NCBI RefSeq assembly: GCF_000816845.1
Contig: NZ_CP006877.1
Coordinates: forward strand, 687,501 to 751,500
DNA from: Rhizobium gallicum bv. gallicum R602sp
GTDB taxonomy: Bacteria > Pseudomonadota > Alphaproteobacteria > Rhizobiales > Rhizobiaceae
DNA length: 64,000 nucleotides
Direction of reading: 5' to 3'
Position numbers and translations under genes: made by a program. The first letter of the stretch is position 1; the number at the start of each line of letters is the position of its first letter. Shown here piece after piece: positions 32,758 to 41,774 of this stretch. Under the pieces are notes generated by a model. That model saw only the letters and a list, made by a program, of their open reading frames with translations, had not been told where the DNA came from and made no database searches.

Positions 32758-33285
32758 ATGACCATGGCAGACGCAGAAGAAACCGACGGCAAGCCGAAAG
32801 CGAAATCCGCCATGCTGGTCATGGCGGCGGGGCTGCTTACGCTCACCTTTCTCGGCGCCGGCGGCGGCTGGCTCGTCGGCACGATGATTGCGCCGAACGT
32901 CAGAAGCGCCGAGCAGGCGGAGGAGGCGGCACAAACGGCTTCGGCCAGCGCCGAAGATAAAAAGGAAGGCGAGGGCGGACTGCCCCATATTTCCACCGAG
33001 GCGAACAACGTCGTCCAGCTTGAGCCGATCACGTCGAACCTCGCCTATCCCTCGGAAAACTGGGTCCGCCTCGAAGTGGCGTTGCTCTTCAACGGTCCGC
33101 CTGATGTGAAAGTGGCCGAGGATATCCACCAGGATGTCCTGGCTTACATCCGCACCGTTTCCCTTCAGCAGATCGAAGGGCCGCGCGGCTTTCAATATCT
33201 CCGGGATGACATACAGGAACGTGTTGACCTGCGTTCGCAAGGACGAGTATCGAAGGTCATGTTCAGGACCTTTGTCATCGAATGA
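32758..33285 (+). CDS. fliL: flagellar basal body protein FliL
   Basis: The 175-residue product has one membrane helix (about residues 20-42) and a periplasmic FliL domain, which forms rings around the stators. The segment VVQLEPITSNLAYPSENWVR and the C-terminal VMFRTFVIE fit the family. The start may be ATG 32758 or 32764. It overlaps fliP by 4 bases. Confidence 0.92.
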   Translation: MTMADAEETDGKPKAKSAMLVMAAGLLTLTFLGAGGGWLVGTMIAPNVRSAEQAEEAAQTASASAEDKKEGEGGLPHISTEANNVVQLEPITSNLAYPSENWVRLEVALLFNGPPDVKVAEDIHQDVLAYIRTVSLQQIEGPRGFQYLRDDIQERVDLRSQGRVSKVMFRTFVIE

Positions 33286-34019
33286 TTCGATTCATAGTTT
33301 TCTTCGCTGCCATGATGGCGGCGCCGGAATTGGCGGTTGCCCAGCAGCTGCCGGCAGATCTTTTGAACATACCCGTCGATGGTTCCGTCGCCGCCTGGAT
33401 CATCCGCACCTTCGGCCTTTTGACCGTCCTTTCGGTTGCGCCCGGCATCCTGATCATGGTGACGAGCTTTCCGCGCTTCGTCATCGCCTTTTCGATCCTG
33501 CGCACGGGCATGGGGCTTTCTTCCACCCCATCCAACATGATCCTGCTTTCGTTGGCGCTCTTCATGACCTTCTATGTCATGTCGCCAACCTTCGATCAGG
33601 CCTGGCAGAGCGGCGTGCAGCCGCTGCTTTCCAACCAGATCAACGAGCAGGAGGCCGTACAACGCATTGCGGAGCCCTTCCGCACCTTCATGGCCGCCAA
33701 CACACGCGACAAGGATCTGGCGCTCTTCGTCGACCTTGCGCGTGAGCGCGGCCAGACCGTCCAGACCGGTGCCCAGATCGACTACCGCGTTCTTATTCCG
33801 GCTTTCATGATTTCGGAGATCAGGCGCGGGTTTGAGATCGGTTTCCTGATCGTCCTGCCGTTCCTCGTCATCGACCTGATCGTTGCAACGATTACTATGG
33901 CGATGGGCATGATGATGCTGCCGCCGACCTCGATCTCGCTGCCTTTCAAGATCCTGTTCTTCGTGTTGATCGACGGCTGGAACCTGCTGGTCGGCAGCCT
34001 GGTGCGATCCTTCAGCTAA
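33282..34019 (+). CDS. fliP: flagellar export gate protein FliP
   Basis: The 245-residue product is an export gate subunit. It has a cleavable signal peptide (residues about 1-20) and four helices, with the signature RFVIAFSILRTGMGLSSTPS and the C-terminal MMLPPTSISLPFKILFFVLI. It is the last gene of the plus-strand operon; a strong hairpin follows. Confidence 0.97.
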   Translation: MIRFIVFFAAMMAAPELAVAQQLPADLLNIPVDGSVAAWIIRTFGLLTVLSVAPGILIMVTSFPRFVIAFSILRTGMGLSSTPSNMILLSLALFMTFYVMSPTFDQAWQSGVQPLLSNQINEQEAVQRIAEPFRTFMAANTRDKDLALFVDLARERGQTVQTGAQIDYRVLIPAFMISEIRRGFEIGFLIVLPFLVIDLIVATITMAMGMMMLPPTSISLPFKILFFVLIDGWNLLVGSLVRSFS

Positions 34020-34061: not shown

Positions 34062-34090
34062 AAACCGCCGGGCATTGCACCCGGCGGTTT
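34062..34090. terminator. bidirectional terminator between fliP and the GT41 gene
   Basis: Perfect 11-bp stem AAACCGCCGGG (34062-34072) and CCCGGCGGTTT (34080-34090) with a 7-base loop, between the convergent ends of fliP and the glycosyltransferase gene. T runs flank it on both strands, so it can serve both. Confidence 0.85.
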
Positions 34091-34109: not shown

Positions 34110-36029
34110 CTATTCCGCCGAGTAGAACGGCTCTGTACGCCGCGGCAAAGCCGGCACGTCGATGTGATCGGGATCAAGGCCGTTCCTGGCGCGCTCAGCC
34201 ATCATTTCATAGGCTTTTTCCAGGTGATGGCAGAAGCGCTCCGCATCGAAAAGCGGCATGATCGGGCCGTTGGCTTTCAGGCGCGCCTTGTACTCGGCGA
34301 TCTTTTCGGGATTTTGCGCCAGCTCGACGGCCAGCTCTTCATAAGCCTTCAGGTCCGGAGCAACGAGTTCGGGCAGGCCGATGGCGTGCTGCAGGCTCTC
34401 GCTGACGCGCGACGCGAAGTTCGTGCCCTTGACTGTGAGGACCGGCAGACCGCCCCATAGCTGCTCCGACGTGGTCGTGTGACCATTGACCGGGAATGTG
34501 TCGATGCCGATGTCGGCTGCCTGCTGGCGGGTGATATGTTCTTCGTAGGTGACACGCGGGCAAAAGATGATGCGCTTTTGCGGGATGCCGGCCTGCTGGA
34601 ACCTCTTCGAGAGATTTTCCTGGTTCCGCGTCCCGTTGGACATGATCCAAAGGACGCTGTTGGGCGCGCGCTTCAGGATATTGCACCAGATGTCGATCGT
34701 CTCGGCGATGATTTTGCGGTTGCCGTTGAACGAAGCGAAGATGAAGGCATCTTCAGGCAGGCCGAGGTCGGCGCGCGTGATCGGCTTCGGTTTCGGACGG
34801 TTCGTCGGGTCATTCGGTTGGTAGCTTTCCGGCATCCGGCAGAATTTCTCATGGTAATGAGGTTTTGCCGCATCCGGAAGGACGAAACGGTCGCCGATGA
34901 CGTAGTCGAGATCGATGTTGAGCGTGCTGCCCGGAAAACCGAGCCAGGCGACATGAACAGGTGCCAGCGGCAGATTGAAAGACGATGCCCGGCTGCCGGC
35001 GGTGTGGCCCTTCAGGTCGACCATGATGTCGATGTTATGCTCGCGAACGACGGCAGCGATTGCTTCATTGGAAAGGCCGTACACATCGACGACGTTTCCC
35101 CAACGGCTGCGGTCGGTCGTGTTCTTCGCCAGATGCTCCGGCTCGGTGTGGCAAAACAGCGTAATTTCGAAGCGGCTCGTGTCGTGCAGTTCGAGGATGC
35201 GCTGCAGGAGCTTCATCGTCGCGTGGTGATCCCAGAAGTCCGAGGACATGTAGCCGACGCGGATCTTGTCGGACCAGGTGTGCGGCATCTTCCGCCGCAT
35301 GGCGACGCGTTCTGGATTGAGGGGGGTCGTACCGATCGTGGCAAACCGGTTGAGGCTCTCGTCGCCGTTCCAGTGGAGATGATAGAACGGGTTGTCCTTG
35401 CGAAGCACGTCAAGATCGCCTTTGGCGATGCGCTCGATGATCGGGGCGCTGTGTTTGTCGGTTTCGTCGAAATCGTTGAACTCGCGCAAGAAGACCAGAT
35501 AGAGAAAGCGGAAAGCGATATTGCCGGGATACCGCTTGAACAGATTGCGCGCGAGCATCTGGTTGGTCTGATCATGCAGGTCGTCGGTCAGGAGCAGGGC
35601 GGCGAGCCTGGAGTGGTCCGGATTGGAACTTTCCGACAGCACTTTCTTGAACGGCTTTACGATGTCGCGCTGCTGGCGGTTCAGGTAGATCGAGGTCAGG
35701 ATATAGGCGAGCTCCGCGTCATCCTGCGCCTTCGAAAGATTGCGCATGCCGATCAGCAATGCGTCGTCTTCGTTCCCGCACTCAAAATGCAGACGTGCGG
35801 CCTGCTTGTGGTATTCGTAGGCGTTCGGGCTGTCGTATTGAGCAGCGAGCGCATAGGATCTCGCCGCGTCTGCCTTGAAGCCCAGCTGCAGAAGGTTCTT
35901 TGCAAGCAGCGCGTAGGTCTTGGCGTCCTGTTGGCTGTCGATGAGCTGGTTCAGTGTTGCAAGCGATTGGGTATAGCGGCCCATCTGGTAGTCTTTGGAG
36001 GCTGCCGAAAACGAAACTTTGCTGTTCAA
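34110..36029 (-). CDS. TPR-containing GT41 (O-GlcNAc-transferase-like) glycosyltransferase, probable flagellin modifier
   Basis: The 639-residue product has TPR-like helices at about residues 15-220 and then a GT41 catalytic region like eukaryotic OGT/SPINDLY: VGYMSSDFWDHHA, VDLKGHTAGSRASSF, PVHVAWLGFPGSTLNID, HEKFCRMPESYQPND, FASFNGNRKI and GHTTTSEQLWGGLPVLT. GT41 enzymes transfer a sugar to Ser/Thr of proteins in the cytoplasm, and TPR-GT41 proteins of the FlmG type glycosylate flagellin. It lies head-to-head with flaA, 389 bases away, which suggests flagellin as substrate; that is inference. I chose TTG 36029 (GGAG six bases upstream); ATG 35984 is the alternative. I see no sugar-nucleotide synthesis genes nearby. 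Confidence 0.85.
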   Translation of the reverse strand: MNSKVSFSAASKDYQMGRYTQSLATLNQLIDSQQDAKTYALLAKNLLQLGFKADAARSYALAAQYDSPNAYEYHKQAARLHFECGNEDDALLIGMRNLSKAQDDAELAYILTSIYLNRQQRDIVKPFKKVLSESSNPDHSRLAALLLTDDLHDQTNQMLARNLFKRYPGNIAFRFLYLVFLREFNDFDETDKHSAPIIERIAKGDLDVLRKDNPFYHLHWNGDESLNRFATIGTTPLNPERVAMRRKMPHTWSDKIRVGYMSSDFWDHHATMKLLQRILELHDTSRFEITLFCHTEPEHLAKNTTDRSRWGNVVDVYGLSNEAIAAVVREHNIDIMVDLKGHTAGSRASSFNLPLAPVHVAWLGFPGSTLNIDLDYVIGDRFVLPDAAKPHYHEKFCRMPESYQPNDPTNRPKPKPITRADLGLPEDAFIFASFNGNRKIIAETIDIWCNILKRAPNSVLWIMSNGTRNQENLSKRFQQAGIPQKRIIFCPRVTYEEHITRQQAADIGIDTFPVNGHTTTSEQLWGGLPVLTVKGTNFASRVSESLQHAIGLPELVAPDLKAYEELAVELAQNPEKIAEYKARLKANGPIMPLFDAERFCHHLEKAYEMMAERARNGLDPDHIDVPALPRRTEPFYSAE

Positions 36030-36418
36030 AACCAACTCCGTGCGGAAATATCCGTTTGAATGTCGCCGTTCAGGGTCGCGCCCACGGCGCCGCAAAGGCG
36101 CAATTATCCCAACCCTGGTTCATCGCATATTGCCGGGCGAAGCTTGCTTGAAACAGGTGACCAGTGAATGCGCTCTACGAATTATTTTTAGCTTGAGATT
36201 ACAGATGTTTACCGCGCATTAACTACGCCTTCTGTCCGCGTTCGGGCACTGCTTCGTTTTTAAGAAGTTGGCAAGCATTGGCTGCGAGATTGCTCCCCGA
36301 CATGACGGGTTTGGGCCAAGAAAACAGGGCACCGAGGGGCATGAAGCTGCTCCGTCATCGCCGGTAAGCAGTCCGGTAATGTCCTCCTTTTGTATCCAGT
36401 TTTCTAGGGGACAGACTT
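36030..36418. promoter_or_regulatory. divergent promoter region of the GT41 gene and flaA
   Basis: This 389-base region has no gene. It contains the flaA leader elements GGCATGAAGCTG (36338-36349) and GTCCGGTAATGTCC (36371-36384), which recur before the other flagellins. It lacks the GTTAACC box seen before flaB, flaC and flaD. The ribosome site AGGGGA lies just before ATG 36419. Confidence 0.6.
36338..36384 (+). promoter_or_regulatory. flagellin leader element, flaA copy
   Basis: Two boxes, GGCATGAAGCTG and GTCCGGTAATGTCC, start 33 bases apart and end 34 bases before the start codon. The same pair precedes all four flagellin genes. Confidence 0.6.
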
Positions 36419-37327
36419 ATGACAAGTATTAATACGAACAACTCTTCCATGGCAGCTCTCCAGACGCTGCGTAACGTCAACAAGGGCCTGAACCAGACGC
36501 AGAACCACGTTTCGACGGGTCTGCGCGTAGGCTCGGCTTCCGACAACGCCGCTTACTGGTCGATCGCAACGACCATGCGTTCCGACAACAAGGCCCTTTC
36601 GGCCGTTTCCGACGCTCTCGGCATGGGTGCCGCCAAGGTTGACACCGCCTACACCGCGATGGACAGCGCCATCGACGTCGTTTCCGAAATCAAGGCCAAG
36701 CTGGTCGCCGCGACTGAAAACGGCGTCGACAAGGCGAAGGTCCAGGAAGAAATCAGCCAGCTGCAAGCGCAGTTGATGAGCATCGCTCAGTCGGCTTCCT
36801 TCAATGGCGAAAACTGGGTTGCCGGCGCAAACAACACCACGAAGAGCGTTGTTTCGTCCTTCGTTCGCGACGGTTCGAACGGCGTCTCGGTCAAGACCAC
36901 CGACTACAAGCTCGACAACACCTCGGCCGGCAACGTGCTGTTCGGCATGAGCGGTGGCTCGATCGAAACCTCCACCGGCATCCTCGGCACCTCGACGGGC
37001 GCAACCGGTTCCGTCTACTCGATGGACATCACCAACTTCACGCTGGGCCAGATCTCGACGGCTCTGTCCAACGTCGAATCCGCACTGAAGGCAATGACTT
37101 CGGCTGGTGCCGAGCTCGGCTCGCTCTCCACCCGCATCGAACTGCAGGACGATTTCGTCTCGGCTCTGAGCGACTCGATCGACTCCGGTATCGGCCGTCT
37201 CGTCGATGCCGACATGGAAGAAGAGTCCTCCAAGCTCAGCGCCCTGCAGACGCAGCAGCAGCTGGCGATCCAGTCTCTCTCAATCGCCAACTCCTCTTCG
37301 CAGAACATCCTGTCGCTCTTCCGCTAA
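36419..37327 (+). CDS. flaA: flagellin FlaA
   Basis: The 302-residue product is a flagellin with conserved D0/D1 ends (MTSINTNNSSMAALQTLRNV and SLSIANSSSQNILSLFR) and a short variable centre. Length is typical of rhizobial complex flagella. The second half is nearly identical in DNA to flaB. The region corresponding to the plant-recognised flg22 epitope reads LRVGSASDNAAYWSIA, unlike the eliciting form. Letters A to D are assigned here by order. It is followed by its own strong terminator. Confidence 0.95.
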   Translation: MTSINTNNSSMAALQTLRNVNKGLNQTQNHVSTGLRVGSASDNAAYWSIATTMRSDNKALSAVSDALGMGAAKVDTAYTAMDSAIDVVSEIKAKLVAATENGVDKAKVQEEISQLQAQLMSIAQSASFNGENWVAGANNTTKSVVSSFVRDGSNGVSVKTTDYKLDNTSAGNVLFGMSGGSIETSTGILGTSTGATGSVYSMDITNFTLGQISTALSNVESALKAMTSAGAELGSLSTRIELQDDFVSALSDSIDSGIGRLVDADMEEESSKLSALQTQQQLAIQSLSIANSSSQNILSLFR

Positions 37328-37383: not shown

Positions 37384-37499
37384 ATGTTTTAAGAACAGGT
37401 TAATCAAACGACATTTAACATTCAGAATTCATTAACTAAATTTCTTTTTTGGTTTCAGTATTCCTTAACCATCTTGCTGTTTCCTAAGCCCATCGAAAT

Positions 37500-37580
37500 G
37501 GCGAGTTAACCTTAATGGATAGGGTTAGCAGGCATGAGGCTGATCGCTGTGGGCCGGCTAAAAATTCCGGAATGTCCCTT
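37500..37580 (+). promoter_or_regulatory. flagellin promoter/leader elements, flaB copy
   Basis: GGCGAGTTAACC (37500-37511), GGCATGAGGCTG (37531-37542) and TTCCGGAATGTCCCTT (37565-37580) lie in order before flaB. The first box is shared with flaC and flaD, the other two with all four flagellins. Confidence 0.6.
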
Positions 37581-37612
37581 CCTTGTTTTTCCTGCCAAAG
37601 GGGCAAATAGAC

Positions 37613-38524
37613 ATGACGAGTATCGTTACCAATAACGCTGCAATGGCAGCTCTCCAGACTCTCCGCGGCATCAACCAGGGCCTCGGCGAAACCCAGGATC
37701 ATGTTTCGTCCGGCCTGCGCGTCGGCAAGGCGGCTGACAATGCCGCTTACTGGTCGATCGCAACGACCATGCGTTCCGACAACAAGGCGCTTTCGGCCGT
37801 TTCCGACGCTCTGGGCCTCGGTGCCGCCAAGGTCGACACTGCCTATGCTGCGATGGACAGCGCCATCGACGTCGTTTCCGAAATCAAGGCCAAGCTGGTC
37901 GCCGCAACTGAAAACGGCGTCGACAAGGCGAAGGTCCAGGAAGAAATCGACCAGCTTCAGGAACAATTGCTGAGCATTGCTCAGTCGGCTGCCTTCTCCG
38001 GCGAAAACTGGGTTGCCGGCGCAAACAACACCACGAAGAGCGTTGTTTCGACCTTCGTTCGCGACGGTTCGAACGGCGTCTCGGTCAAGATGACCGACTA
38101 CAAGCTCGACAACACCTCGGCCGGCAACGTGCTGTTTGGCATGAGCGGTGGCTCGATCGAAACCTCCACCGGCATCCTCGGCACCTCGACGGGCGCAACC
38201 GGTTCCGTCTACTCGATGGACATCACCAACTTCACGCTGGGCCAGCTCTCGACGGCTCTGTCCAACGTCGAATCCGCACTGAAGGCAATGACTTCGGCTG
38301 GTGCCGAGCTCGGCTCGATCTCCACCCGCATCGAAATGCAGGACGATTTCGTCTCGGCTCTGAGCGACTCGATCGACTCCGGTATCGGCCGTCTCGTCGA
38401 TGCCGACATGGAAGAAGAGTCCTCCAAGCTCAGCGCCCTGCAGACGCAGCAGCAGCTGGCGATCCAGTCTCTCTCGATCGCCAACTCCTCTTCGCAGAAC
38501 ATCCTGTCGCTCTTCCGCGGCTAA
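37613..38524 (+). CDS. flaB: flagellin FlaB
   Basis: The 303-residue flagellin is closely related to FlaA; from about codon 140 to the end the two genes differ at only a handful of bases, while the first halves differ more (GINQGLGETQDHVSSGLRVG against NVNKGLNQTQNHVSTGLRVG). ATG 37613 follows the ribosome site AAGGGG. It has its own promoter region and terminator. Confidence 0.95.
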   Translation: MTSIVTNNAAMAALQTLRGINQGLGETQDHVSSGLRVGKAADNAAYWSIATTMRSDNKALSAVSDALGLGAAKVDTAYAAMDSAIDVVSEIKAKLVAATENGVDKAKVQEEIDQLQEQLLSIAQSAAFSGENWVAGANNTTKSVVSTFVRDGSNGVSVKMTDYKLDNTSAGNVLFGMSGGSIETSTGILGTSTGATGSVYSMDITNFTLGQLSTALSNVESALKAMTSAGAELGSISTRIEMQDDFVSALSDSIDSGIGRLVDADMEEESSKLSALQTQQQLAIQSLSIANSSSQNILSLFRG

Positions 38525-38573
38525 CGGGTCGAAGAACATACACCTGCCGGCTCGTCCGGCAGGCCACGATAAG

Positions 38574-38768: not shown

Positions 38769-39674
38769 ATGACCAGTATTTTGACCAATGTCGCTGCAAT
38801 GGCCGCTCTCCAGACGCTGCGCGCCATCAATGACAGTCTGGAGGAAACTCAAAATCATGTTTCATCCGGTTATCGCGTAGAAAAAGCAGCCGACAATGCC
38901 GCCTATTGGTCGATCGCAACGACCATGCGCTCCGACAATAAGGCGCTTTCGGCGGTCTCCGATGCTCTGGGCCTCGGTGCCGCCAAGGTCGACACTGCCT
39001 ATTCTGCGATGGACAGCGCCGTCGACGTGGTAACAGAAATCAAGGCCAAGCTGGTTGCAGCGACCGAGAAGGGTGTCGACAGAACGAAAATCCAGGAAGA
39101 GATCAAGCAGCTGCAGGCGCAGCTCCTCAGCATTGCGCAATCCGCATCCTTCTCCGGCGAAAACTGGGTCGCAGGCAACGAAACGAAAAGCGTCGTCTCC
39201 TCCTTCGTCCGCGACGGCAACGGAAACACTTCCGTTACGACCACCGACTATAAGCTCGACTCCTCGTCGACCGGCAACGTTCTGTTTGGCGTGAGCGGTG
39301 GCGCAATCGAAACCTCGTCGGGCATTATCGGCTCTTCCAACGGGACCATCGGTTCAATCTACTCGATGGACATCACATCCTTCGGAACGGACGGGATTTC
39401 GCTCGCTCTGACGGCCGTCGAACTAGGCCTCGAGGCGATGACGAGGGCAGCCTCGCAGCTCGGCTCGATCTCGACACGCATCCAGCTACAGGAGGATTTC
39501 GTCTCAGCGCTGAGCGACTCGATCGACTCGGGTGTCGGCCGTCTCGTCGATGCAAACATGGAAGAGGAATCCAGCAAGCTGACGGCATTGCAGACGCAGC
39601 AACAGCTAGCGATCCAGTCGCTGTCGATTGCGAATTCCAGCGCGCAGAACATTCTTTCGCTCTTCCGCAGTTAA
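38769..39674 (+). CDS. flaC: flagellin FlaC
   Basis: The 301-residue flagellin keeps the same ends as FlaA and FlaB (MTSILTNVAAMAALQTLRAI, NILSLFRS) but has diverged more throughout, with a shorter centre (VAGNETKSVVSSFVRDG). ATG 38769 follows AAGGGG. The letter follows gene order; in Sinorhizobium the third gene is called flaD. Confidence 0.93.
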   Translation: MTSILTNVAAMAALQTLRAINDSLEETQNHVSSGYRVEKAADNAAYWSIATTMRSDNKALSAVSDALGLGAAKVDTAYSAMDSAVDVVTEIKAKLVAATEKGVDRTKIQEEIKQLQAQLLSIAQSASFSGENWVAGNETKSVVSSFVRDGNGNTSVTTTDYKLDSSSTGNVLFGVSGGAIETSSGIIGSSNGTIGSIYSMDITSFGTDGISLALTAVELGLEAMTRAASQLGSISTRIQLQEDFVSALSDSIDSGVGRLVDANMEEESSKLTALQTQQQLAIQSLSIANSSAQNILSLFRS

Positions 39675-39986: not shown

Positions 39987-40940
39987 ATGGCCTACACGAT
40001 CACAGACGTAGGCGCGTTGAACGTGCTCACTGTTCTTCGCGGCGTTAGCAAGGAAGCCGACACCGTTCAGCGGCAGGTATCGTCGGAGCTGCGCGTCGAG
40101 ACTGCGGCGGATAATGCCTCCTCATGGGCTTCGGCAACGACCCTGCGGTCGGACGAAAACGCGTTGAAGACGGTCGGCGATGCACTAGGTCTCGGTGCTG
40201 CGAAGGTCGATACCGCCTACACGGCGATAACCTCGCTTATCGACGTGGTCTCGGAGATACGCAAAACCGTCGTGTCGGCGACCGACCCCGCCAATGATCG
40301 CGACAAGCTCAGCGTCACGATGGAGCAGTATAAGTCACAGTTGGAAAGCGCCGTGAATTCCGTCAATTTTTCCGGTGAGAACTGGCTGTTGAACCGAGAT
40401 GCGACGGCACCTGTGCAACGGTCGGTCATCGGCGGCTTCGTGCGCGGTCCGAACGGTGAATACTACCCGCAGAATATTACTTACCCGGCAGCCAATACGA
40501 TCATGATCGACACGAACAACGCCAGCCGCGGTCTTTTGACGAAATCGATCAGCGCCGATCCGGACGCAGTGCCGGCCCGCGATTACTATCTGCTCGATGT
40601 AGGTTCGACGACGTCTGCGGCTGGTACCGAAATATCGATCTCCACAACCTCGACGTCGCAGGACCTGCAGGACATGCTGACGGTATTGGACAATATCCTT
40701 TCCAGCCTCAATGCCACCGCCGCGGGCCTTGGCACGATGAATTCGCGCATCGAAGACCGGCAGGATTTCGTCGCCACGCTTTCGACGTCGCTGAAGACAA
40801 GCATAGGCGCCCTTGTCGATACTGACATGGACGAAGCCTCGGTCCGCCTGTCCGCAGCTCAAACAGCACGTGATATGGCAACCGAAGCACTTTCTGTCAT
40901 GAACACGTCCGCGAGCAAGGTCTTAATCCTGCTCGAGTAG
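39987..40940 (+). CDS. flaD: divergent flagellin FlaD
   Basis: The 317-residue product is a flagellin with strongly diverged ends: MAYTITDVGALNVLTVLRGV at the start and SVMNTSASKVLILLE at the end, lacking the usual LSLFR terminus. The conserved inner part (NALKTVGDALGLGAAKVDTA) is kept. The centre is different and longer. It may be a minor or position-specific filament subunit. A stem-loop follows. Confidence 0.88.
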   Translation: MAYTITDVGALNVLTVLRGVSKEADTVQRQVSSELRVETAADNASSWASATTLRSDENALKTVGDALGLGAAKVDTAYTAITSLIDVVSEIRKTVVSATDPANDRDKLSVTMEQYKSQLESAVNSVNFSGENWLLNRDATAPVQRSVIGGFVRGPNGEYYPQNITYPAANTIMIDTNNASRGLLTKSISADPDAVPARDYYLLDVGSTTSAAGTEISISTTSTSQDLQDMLTVLDNILSSLNATAAGLGTMNSRIEDRQDFVATLSTSLKTSIGALVDTDMDEASVRLSAAQTARDMATEALSVMNTSASKVLILLE

Positions 40941-40949
40941 AGTCGGCCT

Positions 40950-40976
40950 GAATGGCAGGTGTGGAGCCTGCCATTC
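40950..40976 (+). terminator. stem-loop after flaD
   Basis: Perfect 10-bp stem GAATGGCAGG (40950-40959) and CCTGCCATTC (40967-40976), 7-base loop, 9 bases after the flaD stop codon. There is no T run, so it may be an mRNA-stabilising structure or a weak terminator. Confidence 0.5.
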
Positions 40977-41135
40977 ATCCTCGCACAAGTTTGGATTTCT
41001 AGTCTGAAGAAGAAACGCTGTTTGAGCCGTGCGAAGGCTGAAGAATGCCTTCGCGTCCGTTGCCGGCGTAAGTGTTTGGTTCGTGCAAGGCGGGACGCGC
41101 ATGTTGAAATTGATTGCAGATGCCGGGTGGTTTCA

Positions 41136-41774
41136 ATGAGCGCTATGCTTGCTCGGTATTTGAAGGACTTCGGTGAGACGAAACCTGCCGCACCGGTCGT
41201 CGATACCGACAACTTCGCCGAGGACGTCTTCGGCGGTTTTCCGGACGTCGCGCAAGAGCCTGCGGTCGATGTCAAAGCCGAGCGCCGTCACGCCTATGGC
41301 GAGGGCTATGCCGCAGCGGCGGCCGAGCTGACGGAGCGATACGAGTTGGAGGCGCAGACGGTCGCGCTTGTGCACCAGCGCGAGATTGAAGAACTGACGG
41401 CAAGGTATGAAGAAGAGACGGCAGCAGTAATTGCCCGCCGTCTCGATGAGATCGCGGCGGAGGTCGCAAATCTCGTAAGTGCGGCAACCGCGAAAGCGAT
41501 TGCGCCGATGCTGACGCAAGCGCTTGCCGTCCAGGCGGTCTCAAGTCTTGCAGCCTTGCTACGCGAAGCGATCCTGGAAGGAGCAGCAGGTTCGATGACG
41601 GTTAAAGGCCCGGTGCGGCTTTTCGAATTGCTGAAGGCCGAAATGGGTGAAAGGCCGGATCTGCTGCGCCATCAGGAATCCGATGACGCCGATCTCTCTG
41701 TTGAAGTCGGCGATTCGGTATTGGTGACGCGCATTTCCGCCTGGTCTGCCAGCCTGAAGAAGGTTCTTGAATGA
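41136..41774 (+). CDS. divergent FliH-like protein (export ATPase regulator candidate)
   Basis: The 212-residue product has an acidic N-terminal part (residues 1-50), a long helical segment with a Gly/Ala-rich start ([20 protein letters not shown]) and strong coiled-coil character ([20 protein letters not shown]), and a C-terminal domain ending [20 protein letters not shown]. That order matches FliH/SctL proteins, which hold FliI and FliJ as a dimer. The last segment recalls the FliH end where a beta hairpin is followed by a final helix. No other FliH is visible in the window. It ends 4 bases inside motB. I chose ATG 41136. The match is by pattern only. Confidence 0.6.

Follow-up and report, generated by a model that had tools for sequence, protein, structure and literature searches.

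A TPR-GT41 glycosyltransferase paired with flagellin in the flagellar cluster of Rhizobium gallicum, a candidate for the decoration of rhizobial flagella

The GT41 gene and the features around it

The window, that is, the whole stretch of DNA analysed, spans 64,000 nucleotides of Rhizobium gallicum bv. gallicum R602sp (positions 687501-751500 of contig NZ_CP006877.1, in a genome of 7.3 Mb) and carries a gene for a glycosyltransferase of family GT41 with tetratricopeptide repeats (TPR), a proposed flagellin O-glycosyltransferase. The gene (34110..36029, minus strand, 639 aa) is convergent, tail to tail, with fliP (33282..34019, plus strand; PF00813, 254.5 bits) and divergent from flaA; its position between the two and its divergence from flaA, read by the first-pass annotation, are borne out by the matches to PF13844 and PF00813 and by the flagellin flank. 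The interval which that annotation had assigned to the enzyme, 34110..36418, holds the gene in 34110-36029, the remainder (36030-36418) being intergenic. The enclosing open reading frame (ORF) covers 34110-36095 on the minus strand, with the realistic start at the TTG at 36029, since a Shine-Dalgarno-like GGAG stands just ahead of it, the start region is kept in relatives, and a 99% identical Rhizobium mongolense protein on record also has 639 residues. The closest named relatives of the protein come from R. mongolense (98-99% identity) and R. sullae (94%).

The hidden Markov model search for PF13844 (Glyco_transf_41), proposed with the original reading, scored the minus-strand ORF at 239 bits, the cut-off being 25, in two stretches corresponding to both catalytic halves; this single open frame is the only PF13844 gene in the whole genome. 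The GT-B catalytic part (residues about 255-616; 34182..35267, minus strand) has Lys439, Asp264 and Arg501 in 63 of 63 aligned rows. The motif of the nucleotide-diphosphate site, a role which we take for Lys439 and the HTT motif from the literature on O-linked N-acetylglucosamine (GlcNAc) transferase (OGT), is likewise kept, His517, Thr518 and Thr519 each occurring in 62/63 rows. The N-terminal helical-hairpin region (residues about 7-202; 35424..36011, minus strand), the proposed acceptor-binding part, is assigned to TPR because a profile built from 63 relatives aligns with a consensus TPR design over positions 6-131 (E 1.1e-26 for the whole sequence, no individual stretch passing alone), precomputed Pfam TPR families are present on several related proteins, and helix pairs are visible in the AlphaFold model (mean confidence, pLDDT, 94). 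Pfam applied to the single sequence placed no TPR family at E 0.001 or better. Model and profiles together describe a TPR superhelix joined to a GT-B core.

The divergent neighbour flaA (36419..37327, plus strand, 302 aa; PF00669, PF00700) opens a plus-strand array of flagellin genes, followed by a second (37613..38524, 303 aa), a third (38769..39674, 301 aa) and a more divergent fourth (39987..40940, 317 aa), the first three being the proposed acceptors. A minus-strand ORF (37484-38539), without a Pfam match, is taken to be a shadow of the second flagellin. Between the fourth flagellin and motB lies a 271-aa ORF (40959-41774), also lacking a Pfam match, with counterparts in five examined relatives at 35-72% identity.

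The intergenic region common to the divergent GT41 and flaA genes (36030..36418, no strand assigned) was examined by sequence and by an alignment of 11 loci. On the GT41 side, the block CGAAGCTTGCTTGAAAC (36138..36154, no strand assigned) is identical in all 11, and a search of the window allowing up to 3 mismatches finds no second copy; it is a candidate promoter or regulator site of the GT41 gene. Upstream of flaA, the alignment reveals a conserved flagellin leader box (36338..36366, plus strand), whose 12-base core recurs exactly at 37531, upstream of the second flagellin. A common promoter for both genes was considered and rejected, and co-regulation of the two is unsupported, because the conserved blocks are separate, one by each gene, and the GT41-side block is single in the window.

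Further window ORFs scanned with Pfam, from whose families the flagellar gene names are taken, comprise the usual flagellar set of fliF, a LuxR-type pair, a FlgF/G-type rod protein, fliI and fliL, together with motB, fliK, a lytic transglycosylase, an OmpR-type regulator, flgE, an flgL-like gene, flbT and flgD. In the gap where fliP and the GT41 gene converge lies a GC-rich inverted repeat with A and T runs on either side (34065-34087), judged by eye to be a possible two-way terminator.

Linkage of the enzyme to flagellin

PF13844 was found in 120/120 sampled genomes of the genus, R. gallicum R602sp included; 118 have a copy that scores strongly (best E of about 4e-44 or below), and the other 2 have a weaker type only. 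Of the 117 strong copies outside R602sp, 40 had their loci fetched, 36 taken from the best-scoring end of the ranking and 4 from the lowest-scoring end. In 40/40 the enzyme is divergent from an adjacent flagellin, and in 38/40 fliP is convergent on its other side, a contig end truncating one of the 2 remaining loci. In the sample of the family Rhizobiaceae, any PF13844 match occurs in 63/247 genomes, 4 of these from the same genus; 60 regions were fetched, which do not comprise every match of those genomes. The same divergent pairing recurs in 11 of the family-sample loci, from 6 other genera, at 41-56% enzyme identity, and in 5/15 loci of named relatives (L003-L006 and Xaviernesmea L013). Seen in 40/40 genus loci and again in 11 loci from 6 other genera, the linkage is far beyond chance, and the synteny survey suggested in the first-pass annotation shows the expected co-occurrence with flagellin. 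Its description of the modification as group-specific suits the genus, where the domain is universal in the sample, and fits the patchy family less well. Because the pairing recurs in related genera, the enzyme is a strong candidate for the decorator of rhizobial flagella; a single gene beside its presumed substrates, confirmed next to flagellin in these 40 other genomes, would allow a single-gene test of rhizobial flagellin glycosylation.

The enzyme follows flagellin, not fliP, as the pairing is kept in four loci of two genera (L082, L098, L102 and L110) where the far side, fetched over about 2.9 kb, has no fliP. The far neighbours are homologues of the rod-protein gene and fliI in L082 and of fliF and the LuxR pair in L098, in whose genome fliP lies about 32 kb off on the same contig, while those of L102 and L110 have no counterpart in the window. 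Among 30 fliP loci, the best-scoring of 67 genomes with fliP and not a random draw, fliP is followed directly by a flagellin on the same strand in 20, GT41 adjoins fliP in 5 (the window's own included), and neither GT41 nor flagellin is in reach in 5. In one array (L110:5098-9560), the flagellin genes point in differing directions, as opposed to the usual tandem order.

A tree of 98 GT41 catalytic regions, inferred with a quick method and the Shimodaira-Hasegawa-like approximate likelihood ratio test (SH-aLRT) instead of bootstrapping, places the flagellin-linked rows in one clade of 31 (SH-aLRT 100), 29 of which are linked. The linkage label changes 3 times on the tree, against a shuffled mean of 25; by the linkage test applied, none of the other 67 rows, which belong to more distant GT41 clades of the family, is linked. 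On this tree, the flagellin-linked enzymes appear to be of one origin. A thirtieth clade member, from Shinella (L007), sits in a flagellar cluster after homologues of the window's flgE, of the two hook-filament ORFs that follow it and of flbT; its fetched stretch contains no flagellin. Directly behind this Shinella gene lies a second glycosyltransferase (Glyco_trans_1_2; L007:10005-11507).

Acceptor, sugar donor and rival explanations

We propose, with a probability of roughly 0.7, that the GT41 enzyme is an OGT-type O-glycosyltransferase, soluble and cytoplasmic, with the flagellins encoded next to it as its acceptors. Newly made flagellin would be bound by the TPR region, and the GT-B part would move one hexose, most likely GlcNAc from uridine diphosphate (UDP)-GlcNAc, onto Ser or Thr, the modified residues presumably lying in the surface-exposed middle of the flagellin, and the sugar would be added in the cytoplasm, before flagellin export. 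Flagellin as the acceptor is supported by the genomic linkage, by the co-divergence of the TPR region with flagellin and by glycoprotein staining in a relative. Linkage through the oxygen of Ser/Thr is suggested by the fold, and action in the cytoplasm before export by two points: neither sequence nor model, viewed without a predictor, displays a membrane or export signal, and nucleotide sugars are cytoplasmic. The influence on plant recognition raised in the first-pass annotation is speculative.

The folds closest to the model are XcOGT, OGT and SPINDLY, and fold and profile comparisons agree with PF13844 in sustaining the earlier assignment to GT41 with an O-linking type of fold. In fold alignments, XcOGT (Xanthomonas campestris, PDB 2JLB/2XGO) and human OGT are 27-30% identical to the R. 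gallicum enzyme, which lacks the middle insert of OGT; we know of neither as a flagellin enzyme. The N-glucosyltransferases HMW1C and ApNGT belong to the same CAZy family, and the first flagellin of the window has eight N-X-S/T motifs, while the available text on Rhizobium leguminosarum flagellins proposes such sites there (PMC2936354); an HMW1C-type enzyme glucosylating flagellin on N-X-S/T is nevertheless very improbable, its sequence and fold match being much weaker and clearly more distant, with 19.7 bits from the N-glucosyltransferase equivalog model against a threshold of 1000.

For the donor, the family points to UDP-GlcNAc as most likely. As no sugar-biosynthesis gene was found among the annotated flanking genes, the simplest assumption is that the donor is one of the household nucleotide sugars. 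The main alternative, guanosine diphosphate (GDP)-fucose as used in a SPINDLY-like reaction, or another nucleotide sugar, would leave fucose or another hexose on flagellin and is a variant of the O-glycosyltransferase proposal, not exclusive of it; we hold it unlikely, with XcOGT and OGT outscoring SPINDLY by sequence. Transfer of pseudaminic or another nonulosonic acid, in the manner of FlmG or Maf, is the least probable of the readings considered. All routes to nonulosonic acids that we know of need NeuB, and NeuB (PF03102) had no match in the R. gallicum genome, controls being positive in 9/14, Caulobacter among them. It is present in 17/60 genomes of the genus and absent in 43/60, the latter including 11 of the 17 genomes with a flagellin link confirmed by a fetched locus. 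A search for the MAF/MptE-like family PF01973 likewise had no match in this genome, with controls positive only in four archaea, which says little on bacterial Maf.

The first-pass annotation had likened the enzyme to FlmG, and the likeness holds for architecture: both are alphaproteobacterial, with an N-terminal TPR and a C-terminal GT-B domain, and with flagellin as the acceptor, probable for the GT41 enzyme and described for FlmG in the accessible part of the article (PMC7591256). It does not extend to the donor, since FlmG of Caulobacter crescentus, according to the same source, needs pseudaminic acid and the R. gallicum genome has no NeuB match. The Caulobacter genome was positive for PF13844 in a control search, which did not name the matching gene. 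Further parallels are the enterobacterial flagellin glycosylation islands, whose flagellin-linked GT41/SPINDLY-family enzymes are predicted from genomes to add GlcNAc derivatives, in the portion of the paper available (PMC4875605); nearly all of those enzymes carry methyltransferase domains, and their islands hold further modification genes, whereas Rhizobium has a single gene between fliP and flagellin. Flagellin-linked GT41 enzymes are therefore a kind already known, of which this member is new. If our proposal is true, it would represent a single-enzyme flagellin glycosylation system working without nonulosonic acids.

Flagellins of two R. leguminosarum strains stain as glycoproteins and were considered possibly glycosylated, with bands near 35 kDa against 31 predicted and N-X-S/T sites suggested, as far as the available sections of that study go (Tambalo et al., 2010; PMC2936354). 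The R. leguminosarum relative of the GT41 enzyme is 77% identical and is named 'glycosyl transferase' in one source and 'O-linked N-acetylglucosamine transferase' in another. An Agrobacterium phage paper refers, in its accessible part, to unpublished work on glycosylated flagella, whose role in Agrobacterium it describes as unexplored (PMC8310070). No gene assigned to rhizobial flagellin glycosylation was found in the open-licence PubMed Central (PMC) literature, to the extent that its text is accessible.

Co-divergence was assessed with distance matrices of 44 loci (L043 was removed because its flagellin call was short; three others, L002, L013 and L133, had been excluded beforehand). Distances of the TPR region and of flagellin correlate with a partial r of 0.74 given FliP and of 0.69 given FliP and FliL, and those of the catalytic part and flagellin with 0.56 given both. 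This bears on a rival explanation in which flagellin is not the main acceptor and the enzyme modifies another protein of the flagellar system, or is a bifunctional regulator like Listeria GmaR, reportedly an O-GlcNAc transferase doubling as anti-repressor, a precedent cited in PMC2936354. A regulator might well be placed head to head with flaA, and the Shinella gene, among hook-filament homologues with no flagellin in its fetched stretch, is also in keeping with this idea. We consider it improbable, as the enzyme stays with flagellins in the four loci where other neighbours differ, and the TPR region co-varies more with flagellin than with FliL (0.74 vs 0.47 given FliP).

Several observations weigh against flagellin glycosylation by this enzyme. 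The FliL figure itself, together with a partial r of 0.39 between FliL and flagellin, likewise given FliP, gives part of the same signal, so that part of the TPR-flagellin co-divergence is shared history, and the co-divergence statistics ignore phylogeny. His498 of OGT is seemingly not kept, position 220 being Trp in 56/63 rows, in a region of uncertain alignment. Tandem mass spectrometry of R. leguminosarum flagellin yielded no glycopeptide, in the available part of the report (PMC2936354). Homologues away from flagellar genes, named in the first-pass annotation as a finding that would count against its proposal, amount to one in the clade: 29 of the 31 members are linked, the Shinella gene occupies another place in a flagellar cluster, and for L118 the 14 kb examined contain no flagellar gene. 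Two Rhizobium genomes (G035 and G066) have flagellins, no linked enzyme and only a second GT41 type, so the linked enzyme is not indispensable; in both, flagellins come directly after fliP, and the main ones have 397-410 residues (L168, L169) against a median of 302 in linked genus genomes. Finally, the Ser/Thr content of the flagellin middles is about equal with and without the enzyme: 0.289 in genus loci with it (99 flagellins, 37 loci), 0.264 in other linked loci (46 flagellins, 16 loci, among them the window and those of four near relatives) and 0.25 in loci without it (31 flagellins, 22 loci). The last set counts two genomes twice via overlapping loci (G193: L147, L172; G130: L142, L170), G193 and G347 carrying the other GT41 type and G130 an unlinked clade member.

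Two candidate correlates were discarded. Flagellin composition offers no useful Ser/Thr difference as a sign of modification, and an association of the enzyme with short flagellins is ruled out by L013, L122 and L133, linked loci with flagellins of 391-428 aa. The flagellin array of G035 also holds a minus-strand cassette (L168:7444-11848) of a pyridoxal phosphate-dependent decarboxylase and two ORFs lacking a Pfam match.

A second GT41 type and its neighbours

The second GT41 type is 33-37% identical to the flagellin-linked enzyme, with a Pfam TPR match in the one protein scanned. A large ORF with at least 5 ALTTAQ-like Thr motifs lies nearby in 21/27 fetched loci, some of the misses being cut by contig ends; these ORFs measure 514-1522 aa, several of them cut, and PF20080 was confirmed in one, in 46 stretches. 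The loci concerned are L058-L077, L125, L129-L132, L134, L136 and L172:8336-14080; ORFs of the flagellin-linked genus loci have at most 1 such motif each. The word ALTTAQ was not found in the open-licence PMC papers searched. The second enzyme and the ALTTAQ-repeat protein are likely an enzyme-substrate pair.

A broader reading, which we advance tentatively and rate at somewhat less than even odds, is that the GT41 enzymes of Rhizobiaceae are each dedicated to a substrate encoded by a neighbouring gene, one clade being inherited with flagellins and the second type paired with large, Thr-rich ALTTAQ-repeat proteins. The enzyme and its acceptor would then change place in the flagellar cluster as a block, and the TPR part would have co-diverged with flagellin. 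If so, GT41-TPR specificity in Rhizobiaceae would be fixed separately for each enzyme-substrate pair, in contrast to eukaryotic OGT, whose specificity is broad. Cassettes of the second type also occur at flagellin arrays, within the array in G193 (L172:3534-15689) and directly beside it in G347 (L173:2-10321).
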